Shown piece after piece: positions 1,349 to 8,761 of a DNA stretch of 8,761 nucleotides. This stretch comes from Candidatus Auribacterota bacterium. Lineage in GTDB: Bacteria; Auribacterota; JAFGBW01. The position numbers and the translations under genes are program-made. The stretch spans positions 1 through 8,761 of the forward strand of contig JAFGBW010000031.1 in NCBI GenBank assembly GCA_016932965.1, in the 5' to 3' direction. The notes beneath the pieces are model-generated. The model saw nothing but the letters and a program-made list of their open reading frames with translations, made no database searches and was not told the DNA's origin. Numbering within the stretch: the first letter of the stretch is position 1; each line of letters begins with the position of its first letter.

Positions 1349-3976
1349 TCAGTTCCCATGCAGGGTTTTTTCCTTGAGCAGCGGTACATGCTTTATGGCG
1401 CAGATCCACTTGACCAGCTCAAACCAGACAATGCTTAAAATTCCGGCAGCGAACGCAATCAAAATATCAAGGCAATGGATGGGAGCAAAATGAAAATGGT
1501 TCTGCAGGAAGGGGACAAAAAGAACCAGTCCCAAAAAAAGCACTGCTCCGCCTAAAACAAAAAACAACGCTTTATTCGGCACATGCACGGACTGAATGAC
1601 CGTCTTGGACCAGCTCCGGTTGGTGAGAATCAGGCATAAATTCGAAATGATCAGAGTGGTAAAACAAATCGTTCTCGCCTCGTTCCAGGTTTGGCCGGAT
1701 AAAACGGAGATTTTAAAAACCAGCATCACGATCAGGAGGGACACCAGCCCCTGGATCACGCTGATGAACAGCGTTCTTTTCCCGAAAAGCGGTTCCCGGG
1801 GATTCCGCGGTTTGCGTTTCATGCTGTCCGGTTCCTCAGGTTCAGCTTCAAAAGCAATGGAACAGGCAGGATCAATGATGAGTTCCAGAAAAACGATGTG
1901 AACCGGAAGAAGAACCATGGAGTTCCACTGGAAAATCACCGGGATCAGGGAGAGTCCGGCAATGGGGATATGGACACTCACGATATATGCCATGGCTTTT
2001 TTAAGATTATCAAAAATTTTTCTTCCCATTTTCACGGCCTCAACAATGGATGAAAAATCATCGTTCACCAGAACCAGTGCCGAAGCTTCACGGGCCACGT
2101 CAGTGCCCCTCTCCCCCATGGCCACACCGATATGGGCGTTTTTCAATGCCGGAGCGTCATTCACACCGTCACCTGTCATGGCCACGATCTCTCCGTTTGC
2201 CTTGAAGGCGTTGACCAGGGACAGTTTCTGCTCGGGCACAACCCTGGCGAAAATATTGACATCCCTGACACGCTGCTGAAGATACTCCGGATGCATTTTT
2301 CCCAGCTCCTGGCCGGTAATGACTTCGGTTGTGTTTTTCAAGGCGATCTGGCCGGCGATATGCTGGGCGGTTTTCGGGTAGTCCCCCGTGATCATCACGA
2401 CCTTGATGCCTGCTTCATAGCACAGTCTGACTGCTTCCGGGACCATCGGCCGGACGGGATCTTCCAGACCGATCAATCCGAGAAATTTAAAATTGAAATC
2501 ATGCTGAATCTCCGGAAGGGGGTCTTTGGCTTTGATGAAGGCACGCGCCACACCCAGCACCCGAAGACCTTCCCGGGTCAGGAGGGAAATCTGGTCTGAA
2601 AGTTTTTCCTGTTTCCCGGGGCTCAGATGACAAAGATCCGCCATGGCTTCGGGAGCACCCTTGGCCGCGATGATGAATTTTTTTCTGTCCTGGGATTGCC
2701 AGACATGGGAAAGCGCCAGCATTTCCCTGGACAGCGGATATTCCTGAATCAGGGTCCAGTTTTCATGAAGATGCTCGGTCGCGGACAGCTTGTCTTTTCC
2801 CAGCTGTTTCAACGCCTTGTCCATGGGATCAAACGGATCTTTCTTGCTGGCAAGAATCCCGAATTCGATCAGCTCATGGAATTCCTCAGGAAGAGGTTTA
2901 TGGGCATTGACTTTGACATCATAGATAGACGATTCAAAAGACCCGCCATCAAAGAAACAGCGGGAACAAATTTTTTTAATGGTCATCTGGTTTTGGGTGA
3001 TGGTGCCGGTTTTGTCCGTGCATAAAACCGTTGCAGCCCCGAGGGTTTCCACGGCGGACATTTTGCGGGTCAGAACCTGCCTGCGGGAAAGACGCCTGGC
3101 CCCAAGCGCTAAAAACAGGGTCAGAACAACCGGAAATTCTTCAGGCAATGTGGCCATGGCCAGAGTGATGCCGGAAAGAATACCATCCAGCCAGTTGCCC
3201 CGCGTGAGTCCGTAAATCACAATGATCAGGATAAACAGCGTAATGGCGATCAGAAAAATGATTTTAACCAGCCTGCCGGTTTCCTTTTGAAGAAGGGTTT
3301 CCTCCGGCTCCAGGACCTGCAGGGCTTTTCCTATTTTTCCTATCTCAGTTTTAATGCCGGTTGATTTGACTGTGGTGACTCCCTGGCCCTGAACAACCAG
3401 CGTCCCTGAGTAAACAAAAGGGAGATCGTCTCCTCCGGGACGGGACATCTCCATGTTTTCCTTTTCACCCGAAACAGGAAGTTTCCGGACAGGAACGGAT
3501 TCACCGGTTAATAGCGATTCATCCACGGTCAAATTCCTGCCCCATAGTACAATTCCGTCAGCAGGAACCCTGTCCCCTTCGGAAAGAATCACGACATCGT
3601 CCCTGACGACTTCCCTTCCGGCAATGCGTTTTCTCATCCCCTCCCGGATGACCAGCGCGCGGGGACTGGACAAATCCCTTAATGCTTCCAGTGCATGCTC
3701 GGTCTTTCCTTCCTGATACACCGTGATCACAATCATGACACAAACAAATCCAAGAAGCATCAGGGCATCGCCTGTTTCTCCTATAAAAAAATAAATCGTG
3801 CCGCATATCACAAGCAGAAGAAACATGGGCTCTTTGACTGCTTCAAATAAAATAGCAATCATGCCGCGTTTTTTTGAGGATGGCAGCTCGTTGTATCCGT
3901 CGGTTTCGAGTCTGTCTGCAACGGTCTTTTCGGAAAGCCCCTTCAACGATTTCACGTCTTCTTCTGTCAGCGCCAT
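1349..3976 (-). CDS. P-type cation-transporting ATPase (P2-like, substrate uncertain)
   Basis: An ATP-driven inner-membrane ion pump of 875 residues, the usual length for P2-type bacterial pumps. It has an N-terminal cation-ATPase domain (about 1-65), M1/M2 (about 48-88), an actuator domain with TGES at 157-160, M3/M4 (about 237-292) with PEEFP at 278-282, the phosphorylation motif DKTGT with Asp321, nucleotide-binding KGAPE at 439-443, TGD at 530-532, the hinge TGDGVND at 601-607, and six C-terminal membrane segments (about 655-860). All catalytic motifs are intact. The ion site is not classical Ca2+-ATPase: PEEFP replaces PEGLP, M5 has His669 and Ile672 where SERCA has Asn768 and Glu771, and M6 reads ELIIDPACS (698-706), keeping Asp702. 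Ca2+, Mn2+, Na+ or another cation cannot be decided. The chosen start follows a purine-rich AGAGAAAGAA about six bases upstream. It lies 296 bp from the kinase on the same strand. Confidence 0.95.
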   Translation of the reverse strand: MALTEEDVKSLKGLSEKTVADRLETDGYNELPSSKKRGMIAILFEAVKEPMFLLLVICGTIYFFIGETGDALMLLGFVCVMIVITVYQEGKTEHALEALRDLSSPRALVIREGMRKRIAGREVVRDDVVILSEGDRVPADGIVLWGRNLTVDESLLTGESVPVRKLPVSGEKENMEMSRPGGDDLPFVYSGTLVVQGQGVTTVKSTGIKTEIGKIGKALQVLEPEETLLQKETGRLVKIIFLIAITLFILIIVIYGLTRGNWLDGILSGITLAMATLPEEFPVVLTLFLALGARRLSRRQVLTRKMSAVETLGAATVLCTDKTGTITQNQMTIKKICSRCFFDGGSFESSIYDVKVNAHKPLPEEFHELIEFGILASKKDPFDPMDKALKQLGKDKLSATEHLHENWTLIQEYPLSREMLALSHVWQSQDRKKFIIAAKGAPEAMADLCHLSPGKQEKLSDQISLLTREGLRVLGVARAFIKAKDPLPEIQHDFNFKFLGLIGLEDPVRPMVPEAVRLCYEAGIKVVMITGDYPKTAQHIAGQIALKNTTEVITGQELGKMHPEYLQQRVRDVNIFARVVPEQKLSLVNAFKANGEIVAMTGDGVNDAPALKNAHIGVAMGERGTDVAREASALVLVNDDFSSIVEAVKMGRKIFDNLKKAMAYIVSVHIPIAGLSLIPVIFQWNSMVLLPVHIVFLELIIDPACSIAFEAEPEEPDSMKRKPRNPREPLFGKRTLFISVIQGLVSLLIVMLVFKISVLSGQTWNEARTICFTTLIISNLCLILTNRSWSKTVIQSVHVPNKALFFVLGGAVLFLGLVLFVPFLQNHFHFAPIHCLDILIAFAAGILSIVWFELVKWICAIKHVPLLKEKTLHGN

Positions 3977-4115: not shown

Positions 4116-4134
4116 CTCCGTGCTCTCCGTGGTG
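4116..4134 (+). repeat. CTCCGTG-type repeat, right copy
   Basis: The sequence is CTCCGTGCTCTCCGTGGTG, followed by an AT-rich tail ending in ATTCATA. The first 16 bases are identical to 1272-1287, and the 19-mer differs by one base from the reverse complement of 978-996. Confidence 0.85.
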
Positions 4135-4272: not shown

Positions 4273-6921
4273 TTAAAGAGCCGTATAGAAATTATTCAGG
4301 AATTCCAGCAGCATTTTCCTCTGAAAATCCGGGAGCCATTTTTGGATGATCTGTTCAATGACTTCCAGTCTCACAGGCTTGCTGATATAATGATCCATCC
4401 CGGCATCCAGACATTTTTTATCGTCGCCCCTCATGGCAAAAGCGGTCATGGCAATAATGGGCACATGTTCGGAATGTCCGGGAATCTCCACGGCCTTTTG
4501 TTTTTCCTTGTCCCGTATCCGGCGGGTGGCTTCATATCCATCCATCTCAGGCATCTGGCAGTCCATGAATATCAAATCAAAACTACGGTTTTCCATTATT
4601 TCGAGGGCCTCTTTCCCGCTTTTTACCAGTTCCACATGACAGCCGTATTCTTCAAGCATCAGTTTGGACACCTTCTGATTCTGAATATTGTCTTCCACCA
4701 CCAAAACGCTTATGACGTCTTCAAAGGACTTGTTTCGCTGAAAATCGAAATTCCTTGGCGTCTGATTCAAAATGACTGCTTTGGGCAAAGCCGAAGCCTT
4801 TTCGCTTTTAACCGTAAAAGGGATGGACACCATAAAGGCGGAACCCTGGCCGGGTTTGCTTGTGACGCTTATTTCCCCCCCCATCAGCTCAGCCAGTTTC
4901 CGACAGATCGTCAATCCCAATCCCGTTCCGGCGTAATGTTTTGCTGAAGAAATTTCAAGCTGAGTGAATTGGTCAAAAATTTTTTCCTGCAGATCTGAAG
5001 GGATGCCTATTCCCGTGTCGGAAACTTTTAACAACACAAAAAACCGTTTTTCCGTCTCATACAGGGCCTGTTTTTGTAAAGGTTCACCGGCTGTTTCAGC
5101 CTGGATTGAAATGCGGCCATGGGAGGTGAATTTCACTGCATTGCTTATAAGATTGATCAGAATCTGCCGCACTTTCCCGGCATCGCCAGTCATGACAGCA
5201 GGAATTTCCGGTGAGAATTCCGACAATAATTTCAATTTTTTTTCAGATGCTTTTGCCTCAAAAAGCCTGACGACATCTTCAATGGTTTCCTTCAGATTAA
5301 AAGACTGTAAGGCCAGTTCCATTTTTCCTGATTCAATCTTTGAAAAATCCAGGATATCGTTTAATATAGCAAGCAAAGCGTCTCCGGAATCCCTGATGAC
5401 GGTCACATAATTTTTCTGCTGGGGAGTCAACCCGGTCTTCAGCAGCATATCCGTCATTCCAATAAGACTGTTCATGGGGGTGCGTATTTCATGGCTCATA
5501 TCGGCCAGGAATTCACTTTTGGCCAAGCTGGCCTGCTCCGCCGCTTCTTTGGCCTTGATTAAATCATGAGTCTGTTCGTTCACCATTTGCTGCAAATGGT
5601 CCCTGTGCTCAAGAAGAGACTCTTCGTAACGTTTTCTTTCCTGCAATAAAGTGGTGATATCGCTCTTGACTATCTGAAGCGCATCCATAACCGCTTTAAA
5701 AGGATGTGAATCATCCGTCGTTTTTACGGCAAGACCGTCATCTTTCCAGCTGATGGTTCCGAGGAAATTCAGGATTTCTTCCACGTATTTGTTCATTTCC
5801 TGCGGCAAAACTCCTATATTCCCTGAATTGATCGGGGCCTCTTTCTGCTGGATATTTTCCGTGACCGTGGATACTCCTGTTTTATTTTCAGACTGCAGCA
5901 GAAACTGCCGGGCCAGTCTCACCGCCTGGGAGATATTCCCTGCAATTTCAACAGGATACGGGACCTTGACGATCCGTTTTCCCAGATTGATCAGCATTTT
6001 ATAAGACGGGTTCGGTTTTAAAAATATGAATCCGTAGATCCTTTTATTATTGATGATATGTTTGATGTAAAATGTGCGGCCTTCAAGGGACAATTCCGCT
6101 GAATCAGAGAGGTCCTCAATCAATACATAGGGGGCATTTTCAGGGACTGCCTCGGCCACCACTTTCTCCTCCAATTCGAATGCTTTCTTCAGCGTATCCA
6201 CATTCACTTTACCACGGCTTTTTGAGACCAGGATGTTATTACCGACGGCGATATAATTCTCGCAGTAATTTTCCAGGCCAAAGGTCTGATCAGTCCATTC
6301 AGGTTTTCTTATAACCGGCAGATCGTTGATTGAAGAAACATCTTTGTCCCATATGTCGATTTTCTCCTCCCAAACCAAAAAAGAATCATCGGATGAAGCG
6401 TGCTCTTTTTCAGACAAACATGTCAGGGGTGTATGATTGATCTCACAGGCTAACCGGACCGCTTCTTCAAAATTCCTGGCCAGCTCAATTCTTATCCCCT
6501 TGAATAAAATATTTTTCGCCAGGGAAATGGATATTCTCAGCATAGGGGGCACGTTATAATAAATCACGGCTTTGAGCTTTTTATTTTGAGTCTGGCACTG
6601 GATATAATATTTCCGCCCTTCGTTTGAGACTCCTTTAAGCCGGGAATAATCTTCAAGACTGATGTACTGGCCCCCCCGGGGAAAGGATTCGTCGACTATT
6701 TTTTTTGTGATTTCAAAATCTTTTTTCAGACTGTCAAGCTCAGCATATCCGCATGGTTCGGAAACAAAAATAAAATTACTGATGAGAAAAAAAGTGGTTT
6801 TATAATCCGGACCCAGAACAAGGTTTGTCCATTCCTCTTTTTTAATTACAGGAATCCCTTTCATGGAAATCTGATTGGAAATATTAAACAGATTTTCCTG
6901 AGTTTTCATGTAGTGTAACAT
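4273..6921 (-). CDS. Soluble hybrid sensor histidine kinase/response regulator with duplicated STAS-like N-terminal domain
   Basis: An 882-residue signalling protein that should autophosphorylate and pass phosphate to its own receiver. Residues about 23-161 and 201-340 are two diverged copies of one domain (shared landmarks: PVI+K-EWT, VS, D-LKK-FE, ED-S, EGR-YI, NK, AVRLA). A helical, coiled-coil-prone linker spans about 375-470. HisKA carries [12 protein letters not shown] with His477. HATPase has the N-box Asn594, DTGIG at 635-639, IFDQF at 648-652 and GTGLGL at 665-670. The receiver (about 737-860) has Glu743/Asp744, phosphoacceptor Asp787, Thr826 and Lys848. There is no membrane segment, PAS domain or HPt, so it is probably cytosolic and needs a separate HPt and output regulator. 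The start is uncertain: ATG at 6921 has no clear ribosome site, and ATG at 6909 (residue 5) has only a distant GGA. Both leave the domains intact. A good promoter lies at 6982-7010. Confidence 0.95.
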
Positions 6922-7264: not shown

Positions 7265-8761
7265 ATGAAAAAACTGACCCGTATATTAACCATCATTATT
7301 CCTCTTGTCCTTCTATCAGGTGTAGGACTGTTTTTTCTTCTTCAGAAAAAAATGAAACGCCTTCCTTCTTCCAGGGAAAATGTTTATAAGGTCCTGCAGG
7401 AAGGAATTGACAACGCTAAAAAACGTTCTTTCCCTGAAGCACATTCAAAATTTAAAGAAGCCGAAAAAATACTGCGCCAGGATGAGCACGTTTTCTTCTC
7501 TCTGGGAGATATTGCGGAATTTCCTTCACTCATCAATGAATTCAAGACTTTTCAGCAGGAATGGGCTATAAGCCTTTTCCAGATGCTTCCAAATCCGCTG
7601 CAGGTTAAAATCACTCAATTGAAAACTTCACAAGAACTGGACACCGCTTTTGAAACAGAGTTTATCCAGGCCTTGAATAAGAATCTGATGCGGTCTGATT
7701 TCACTGAAAAACTGGCGTTAACAGGGGAGGACCGTTTTCCCAGGCGTATCCGGCTGCTCATTCGATCACTCCGTCCCGGATTGCCCCAACCAGACCCACA
7801 AGCGGTGATCAGAGATCCATCTTTTGTCTACTATAACCGCCTGTTTCTCGCCGGCGCCCTCCCTCAGTTTTTCCCGCAGCCATTAACTGAACTGGAAATC
7901 AAGATGAATGAAGCTTTGGCTTATTTCTCGGAAAGAAAGATCATCCAGGCCGAGGATATACTGAAAGACGTGATCCGGAAACAGCCATTGTATATCAAAG
8001 CCTATTTGCTCCTGGCAAGGATTGAGGAAAACAAGGGAAACCTGGACAAGGCAATTGAAATCCTTCAAGAGGCAATAAAAATCGTTCCGGATGATGAAAA
8101 TGTGCTCACGGAATTGGCCGTGTATTATAAAAAGTCGGGGAAACCCGAAAAAGCCAAAGAACTTTTGGAATCGGTGTTACAGTTGAATCCGAATAATTTC
8201 TATGCCATTCAAGGGCTCCATGTCCTCGAAAGAAATACCAGAAAAAATCTGCAGAGTTCCGCTTACTACCGGACCCTGGCTGGTGGAGATCCCAAAAATA
8301 TCATTCATTTGAGCAATCTGGCATTGGCTTTACTCAAGGAGAAAAAAATCAGTGAAAGTTATGAATCGGTCAAGAAAGGATTGATGATCCAGCCGACTGA
8401 CGGGTATCTTTTAAAGATAAAAGGCAGATTGGAGGGAATCCGCCAAAATTACAGACAGGCTGTAGAGGACCTCCTCAAGGCCAAAAAATACTCAGCCGGT
8501 TCTGACAAAGAAATCTATCTTTTACTGGGTATCACTTATTTTAATCAGCAGTTGAATGAGGAAGCTTATCAGACGTTGAATGAAGGACTGGTTTTGTTTC
8601 CCAATGAAAAACACTTTCTGTACAATCTGGCTATGGTTTGTGAAGTAATGCCTGATCACCGGAAGGAAGCCCTGGAACATTACCAGAATTACCTTCGTCT
8701 CTATCCGGAATCCGACAACCGGGAGGAGATAAATAATAAAATTAAAAATTTACAAAAAAGC
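7265..8761 (+). CDS. Membrane-anchored tetratricopeptide-repeat protein (3' end at or just beyond window edge)
   Basis: The frame runs 499 codons from ATG 7265 to the last base without a stop. Residues 1-31 form a signal anchor: MKK, a hydrophobic stretch (about 7-26) and then a basic QKKMKR stop-transfer patch, so the body is probably periplasmic and tethered to the inner membrane. An N-terminal helical pair (about 37-72) resembles a TPR. Residues about 95-205 are unlike TPRs and unrecognised. From about 211 a run of TPR-like 34-residue units follows, ending in prolines at 241, 275, 309, 377, 446 and 481; the clearest are 244-276, 277-309 and 414-446. TPRs form superhelical protein-binding scaffolds; the partner is unknown. 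The charged, lysine-rich end (NKIKNLQKS) looks like a natural C-terminus, so only a few codons may be missing. No good ribosome site precedes the ATG; the start is chosen because the signal anchor begins there. Codon use resembles its neighbours. Confidence 0.85.
   Translation, partial: MKKLTRILTIIIPLVLLSGVGLFFLLQKKMKRLPSSRENVYKVLQEGIDNAKKRSFPEAHSKFKEAEKILRQDEHVFFSLGDIAEFPSLINEFKTFQQEWAISLFQMLPNPLQVKITQLKTSQELDTAFETEFIQALNKNLMRSDFTEKLALTGEDRFPRRIRLLIRSLRPGLPQPDPQAVIRDPSFVYYNRLFLAGALPQFFPQPLTELEIKMNEALAYFSERKIIQAEDILKDVIRKQPLYIKAYLLLARIEENKGNLDKAIEILQEAIKIVPDDENVLTELAVYYKKSGKPEKAKELLESVLQLNPNNFYAIQGLHVLERNTRKNLQSSAYYRTLAGGDPKNIIHLSNLALALLKEKKISESYESVKKGLMIQPTDGYLLKIKGRLEGIRQNYRQAVEDLLKAKKYSAGSDKEIYLLLGITYFNQQLNEEAYQTLNEGLVLFPNEKHFLYNLAMVCEVMPDHRKEALEHYQNYLRLYPESDNREEINNKIKNLQKS

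Follow-up and report, generated by a model that had tools for sequence, protein, structure and literature searches.

The 8,761-nucleotide stretch analyzed here (the window) comprises positions 1 to 8,761 of contig JAFGBW010000031.1 from a Candidatus Auribacterota bacterium (assembly GCA_016932965.1). Its minus strand carries the gene for a hybrid histidine kinase, the front half of which contains two tandem copies of a domain with a predicted STAS/SpoIIAA fold. The features of this gene, in window coordinates, were as follows.

4273..6921, minus strand: hybrid histidine kinase gene, 882 amino acids (open reading frame and translation; Pfam HisKA, HATPase_c and Response_reg)
6427..6867, minus strand: STAS-like domain copy 1, A-type, residues 19-165 (AlphaFold2 predicted local distance difference test score, pLDDT, of 91.7; Z 13.9 to SpoIIAA; A profile 140 bits, B profile 55)
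5890..6333, minus strand: STAS-like domain copy 2, A-type in a slot that is usually B-type, residues 197-344 (identity of 36% with copy 1; elements in the same order in the tandem model; SLC26 STAS rows with Z up to 9.8; A profile 128 bits, B profile 50)
5614..5796, minus strand: conserved linker, residues 376-436, family module YVDELLxFLGxINWE...SHPFxxVFDAIxLIKxDLDxLLxER (alignment; strong matches only in genes with the sensory domain, 85 genomes)
5326..5523, minus strand: HisKA dimerization/phosphoacceptor domain, residues 467-532, phosphoacceptor His477 (Pfam PF00512, E 8.9e-23; motif position)
4813..5187, minus strand: HATPase_c catalytic domain, residues 579-703 (Pfam PF02518, E 1.2e-26; N box, DTGIGIP and GTGLGL present)
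4345..4707, minus strand: receiver domain, residues 739-859, acceptor Asp787 (Pfam PF00072, E 1.9e-27; motif positions)

Pfam searches and a motif check identified all of the elements of a hybrid histidine kinase, namely, the HisKA histidine, the N and G boxes of HATPase_c and the Asp, Thr and Lys residues of the receiver. The catalytic motifs of both kinase and receiver are intact. No Hpt domain was detected by Pfam after the receiver, and hence phosphotransfer beyond the receiver would need a protein encoded outside the window. N terminal of residue 467, nothing exceeded the Pfam cut-off; the NCBIfam matches listed were generic kinase models, all under their own cut-offs. The highest 19-residue hydropathy mean was 1.10, indicating a soluble protein, and the hydropathy scan found no membrane segment in this kinase or in any family member.

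A first-pass annotation, made from the sequence by eye, had proposed that the front half of the kinase consists of two nearly gap-free copies of about 140 residues with roughly three in ten positions identical. Local alignment of residues 23-161 (6439-6855) with residues 201-340 (5902-6321) gave 51 identities in 140 positions (36%), slightly above that estimate, with one single-residue gap and a score of 232. The scores of 2,000 shuffles had a mean of 30, a standard deviation of 5 and a maximum of 63, placing the observed score at a z of 40. The match ran from PVI(K/R)K-EWT through AVRLA, and the motifs noted by eye at the start (PVI+K-EWT) and end (AVRLA) lay at the ends of the alignment. These results showed that the kinase contains a tandem duplication.

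The fold of the copies was examined with AlphaFold2, using 13 aligned copies, all of them from the window or from loci that a DNA motif search had located. The model of copy 1 had a mean pLDDT of 91.7 and a predicted template modeling score (pTM) of 0.87. Foldseek searches with this single-copy model returned SpoIIAA-like and STAS structures as all of the top matches, among them 2q3l (SpoIIAA-like; best E value, 5.8e-5), SpoIIAA from SpoIIAB complexes and other STAS proteins. Comparison of the predicted model by VIA-align gave a Z of 13.9 to SpoIIAA (root mean square deviation of 2.4, 114 residues aligned) and of 13.1 to 2q3l. In a tandem model, the strands and helices of copy 2 followed the order seen in copy 1, and copy 2 matched SLC26 STAS domains (the prestin STAS domain) with Z values of up to 9.8. 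The tandem model had a pTM of 0.40, and its placement of the copies relative to each other is unreliable; the intramolecular pseudo-dimer suggested in the first-pass annotation is accordingly putative. The order read by eye (strand YVLIEDLS, helix SLEGRTFYI, strand IYGFIFL, a helix, strand PVEIAGN and helix AVRLA) agreed with the DSSP assignment of the tandem model (E251-263, H265-277, E281-287, H291-303, E310-313 and H316-333, with model residue 1 being protein residue 15). Overall, the predicted models strongly support the STAS/SpoIIAA fold suggested in the first-pass annotation.

Profile searches by sequence did not place the domain in a named family. The STAS profile PF01740 had no match in the window kinase (E up to 10), nor was one listed for 26 A-type and 14 B-type domains of related proteins (E up to 1). 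The SpoIIAA-like profile PF11964 had no match in the window kinase and weak matches to 1 of the 26 A members (E 0.0019) and 1 of the 14 B members (E 0.14). DUF7793 (PF25056) scored 15.4 bits on the window kinase, below its curated cut-off of 26, although 7 of the 26 A-type members matched this profile over the domain core (best E 4e-5); a literature search for DUF7793 found no paper. A sequence search of solved structures gave no matches for the sensory region of the window kinase and only chance-level matches for the family profiles.

Relatives were identified with a degenerate motif derived from both copies; a scan of 84,980 species genomes located five loci. Each of these, from Desulfobacteraceae, Spirochaetes and Aminicenantes genomes, was a true relative by tblastn, and about 30 related proteins are now known in genomes of these types. 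Family proteins carry between one and five copies, typically with a divergent B-type copy after one or two of the A type. The two-copy arrangement is thus common among homologues, as the first-pass annotation had asked, but as a family invariant it was rejected. A tree of 52 copies from 26 proteins separated A from B by a long branch (1.33 changes per column, support of 98/100), with all first and nearly all middle copies on the A side and the last copy before the linker on the B side; the two profiles matched each other with an hhalign probability of 99.7. Copy 2 of the window kinase was alone among the last copies in falling on the A side. Assignment of this copy to the B type was rejected by profiles built without the window (A 128 versus B 50 bits, compared with A 140 and B 55 bits for copy 1). 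A tree grouping copy 2 with the B copies was not rejected (approximately unbiased test P value, p-AU, of 0.46), which concerns its branching place only, and an arrangement of copies 1 and 2 as sisters was neither supported nor rejected (p-AU of 0.45). By these scores the window protein is A-A and not A-B, and both copies retain most of the same core residues. Specialization of the two slots, as judged from the sequences, is real in the family, where a B-type copy lies beside the linker in most relatives, but is not visible in the window protein. For this protein, the suggestion in the first-pass annotation that the copies have different ligands or that one is structural is hypothetical.

Two standalone A-type proteins, with a degenerate linker-like tail and no kinase, were also observed (L109:2346-3113, 255 amino acids; L110:2342-3130, 262 amino acids). 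Both genes lie in a conserved cluster with an FAD-linked oxidase, a class IV aminotransferase (overlapping the end of the gene in L109) and a Mem_trans permease, which may be a hint to the ligand chemistry. Copies interrupted by a stop or frameshift were found at L071:619-1164 (genome G115), L112 and L063, and may reflect decay of the module in some genomes or assembly errors.

Several residues were conserved across the A copies. In copy 1 numbering, W31, G58, D91, R103 and A154 were each present in at least 30 of 33 A copies, and position 99 was Ser or Thr in 29 of 33. A Cys, usually within Cys-Pro-(Val/Ile)-(Thr/Ser)-Gly, starts 28 of the 32 untruncated A copies and none of the B copies; both window copies are without this motif (6826-6867 and 6292-6333), for which redox, metal or heme functions are conceivable. 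At the site aligned to SpoIIAA Ser58, at the start of alpha2, Ser or Thr was present in only 3 of 52 copies, and the residue was mostly Glu, Ala or Lys. As the profile alignment at this site was weak (probability of 0.9 on a 0-100 scale), this scarcity is suggestive only. In most members of the SpoIIAA-like family, the Ser58 site is occupied by Glu or Asp (PMC2954212). Such a replacement of the phosphoserine would make a SpoIIAA-type serine phosphoswitch unlikely in this family.

The last copy is followed by a linker of about 62 residues. A search with the linker only, in the 85 genomes of the class of the Desulfobacteraceae metagenome-assembled genome, gave 11 strong matches in 10 genomes, all in sensor-bearing genes (one of them split by a frameshift); a twelfth match was short and partial (E 0.009). 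This restriction indicates that the linker is evolutionarily tied to the sensor. The outputs of the relatives were HisKA kinases, variably accompanied by PAS, receiver and Hpt domains, and, in one protein (L008), an HD domain at the end of a chain with an A-type domain and the linker and no GHKL domain; this HD-output protein was among the strong linker matches.

Profile searches for the domain revealed a patchy distribution. It was present in 11 of the 85 genomes of that class and in 11 of 395 sampled genomes of the corresponding phylum, in 5 of 149 genomes of the Spirochaetes phylum and in 1 of 149 sampled genomes of the phylum of the Aminicenantes genome, the other 148 having none at threshold. 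The lone Aminicenantes carrier (G047; loci L007 and L059-L062) has 12 domain copies in five proteins. Among 44 genomes of the phylum of the window, only the window genome carries the domain, and no relatives of the sensory region were found in phages, plasmids or viral contigs. This spread suggests horizontal transfer, and the window gene was probably acquired in this way.

The architecture, the relatives and the lack of membrane segments agree with the proposal that the front half of this hybrid kinase is soluble and duplicated; its sensory role we infer from position, since in relatives the module lies ahead of HisKA, PAS-HisKA or HD outputs. We favor, with moderate confidence, a horizontally acquired gene for a cytosolic hybrid kinase in which two tandem STAS-superfamily domains and the linker form the input and act as a sensor of a ligand or partner. 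The STAS-like pair would bind a soluble or membrane-surface ligand, most likely small and perhaps nonpolar, in the alpha2/alpha3 region, the site suggested for the SpoIIAA-like and CRAL-TRIO relatives; a partner protein instead of a ligand would be less likely. The small-molecule version draws on crystal structures of SpoIIAA-like proteins, in which a hydrophobic cavity lies between alpha2 and alpha3 (PMC2954212), and such binding by the pair is putative. The change on binding would be transmitted through the linker and linker helix to the HisKA dimer, altering autophosphorylation on His477, and the phosphate would then pass to the protein's own receiver at Asp787 and on to an Hpt protein or response regulator encoded outside the window. 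A SpoIIAA-like mechanism, with a phosphorylated serine in the STAS domain, would probably play no part. For the wider family, we put at about even the chances that A/B repeats of this fold and an obligatory linker constitute an unnamed prokaryotic sensory module, giving cytosolic ligand input to histidine kinases and HD enzymes; the window protein would then be an A-A variant in which B was replaced or lost.

Some observations weigh against these interpretations. A two-residue shift of the weak Ser58 alignment would place the conserved Ser/Thr99 at the phosphosite. The conserved positions W31, G58, D91, S/T99, R103 and A154 include polar residues and might suit a polar ligand or a protein interface. 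Finally, absence of the domain elsewhere in the phylum may partly reflect loss or missing contigs.

The pair could alternatively be a docking platform, with no ligand pocket, for a partner such as a STAS protein, an anti-sigma-type kinase or a stressosome-like assembly. Many characterized STAS domains work by protein contact, and SpoIIAA-SpoIIAB, the RsbS stressosome and MlaB were among the structural matches; tandem copies multiply the contact surfaces, the standalone A-type proteins could be partners, and a known HTH (helix-turn-helix)-STAS-GHKL kinase, CapK, has another STAS protein as its partner (PMC13373217). However, few copies have, at the aligned site, the Ser/Thr switch on which partner-switching STAS proteins rely, no partner gene adjoins the kinase in the window and the domains have no STAS membership by sequence, and we regard docking as rather unlikely, though deserving of some weight. 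The presence of a STAS fold and a GHKL ATPase in one chain, with SpoIIAA from SpoIIAB complexes as the top structural match, raises the possibility of intramolecular autoinhibition, in which the STAS-like domains bind their own HATPase_c as SpoIIAA does SpoIIAB. This is improbable: L008 keeps the A-type domain and linker yet ends in HD, which argues against any mechanism requiring the kinase's own GHKL domain, and standalone proteins also exist. That the copies are scaffold or dimerization spacers with no sensing would fit a copy number ranging from 1 to 5 and the frequent self-association of STAS domains. We consider this very improbable, as specific polar and aromatic positions (W, G, D, S/T and R) are kept across phyla, the A and B types stay distinct and a conserved linker accompanies the module, which is joined to different outputs.

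Comparison with known systems helped to place the proposed ligand or partner sensor. The SpoIIAA-like proteins (PF11964, DUF3478; 2q3l and 2ook), which gave the best Foldseek E value, share the fold and, if the weak Ser58 alignment is correct, a commonly replaced SpoIIAA phosphoserine, by Glu or Asp in that family and mostly by Glu, Ala or Lys here. Their known members are single-domain or UspA-fused proteins, whereas the window family has a repeated domain on histidine kinases and a specific linker. The STAS anti-sigma antagonists (SpoIIAA, RsbS and RsbV; PF01740) have the same fold (Z 11-14), but the window family is without a Pfam STAS match or DSSG motif and is covalently within a histidine kinase. 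CapK, like the window kinase, has STAS and GHKL kinase domains on one soluble chain (PMC13373217) but is not a HisKA/receiver hybrid, and its logic is different. The CRAL-TRIO/Sec14 lipid carriers have a related fold with weak Foldseek matches and share the alpha2/alpha3 cavity with SpoIIAA-like proteins (PMC2954212); their likeness to the window family in ligand binding is putative, and no sequence relation was shown. The search of the literature library found no paper describing hybrid kinases with STAS-like input domains.

The domain belongs to a well-known fold, of which it forms an unnamed branch that serves as an input module. Transporters and anti-sigma partner switches are familiar settings for STAS domains. 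If the proposal is correct, a repeated STAS-fold input that sits at the front of soluble kinases, has a dedicated linker and can be joined to different outputs would be a sensory class missed by current profile libraries, and the clear separation of A from B, together with the standalone proteins, would offer direct handles on the ligand or partner.

The kinase gene is flanked by a P-type cation-transporting ATPase gene (1349-3976, minus strand) and, divergently, by a gene for a tetratricopeptide repeat protein (7265-8761, plus strand), neither of which hints at a signal or partner. No RNA or tRNA features were found in the window. A dispersed repeat, ACCACGGAGGNCACGGAG, was present in intergenic DNA on both strands around the cation ATPase gene (979-996, 1272-1298 and 4116-4133), with 4 matches versus 0.01 expected, two of which form an inverted pair with 22-nucleotide arms.
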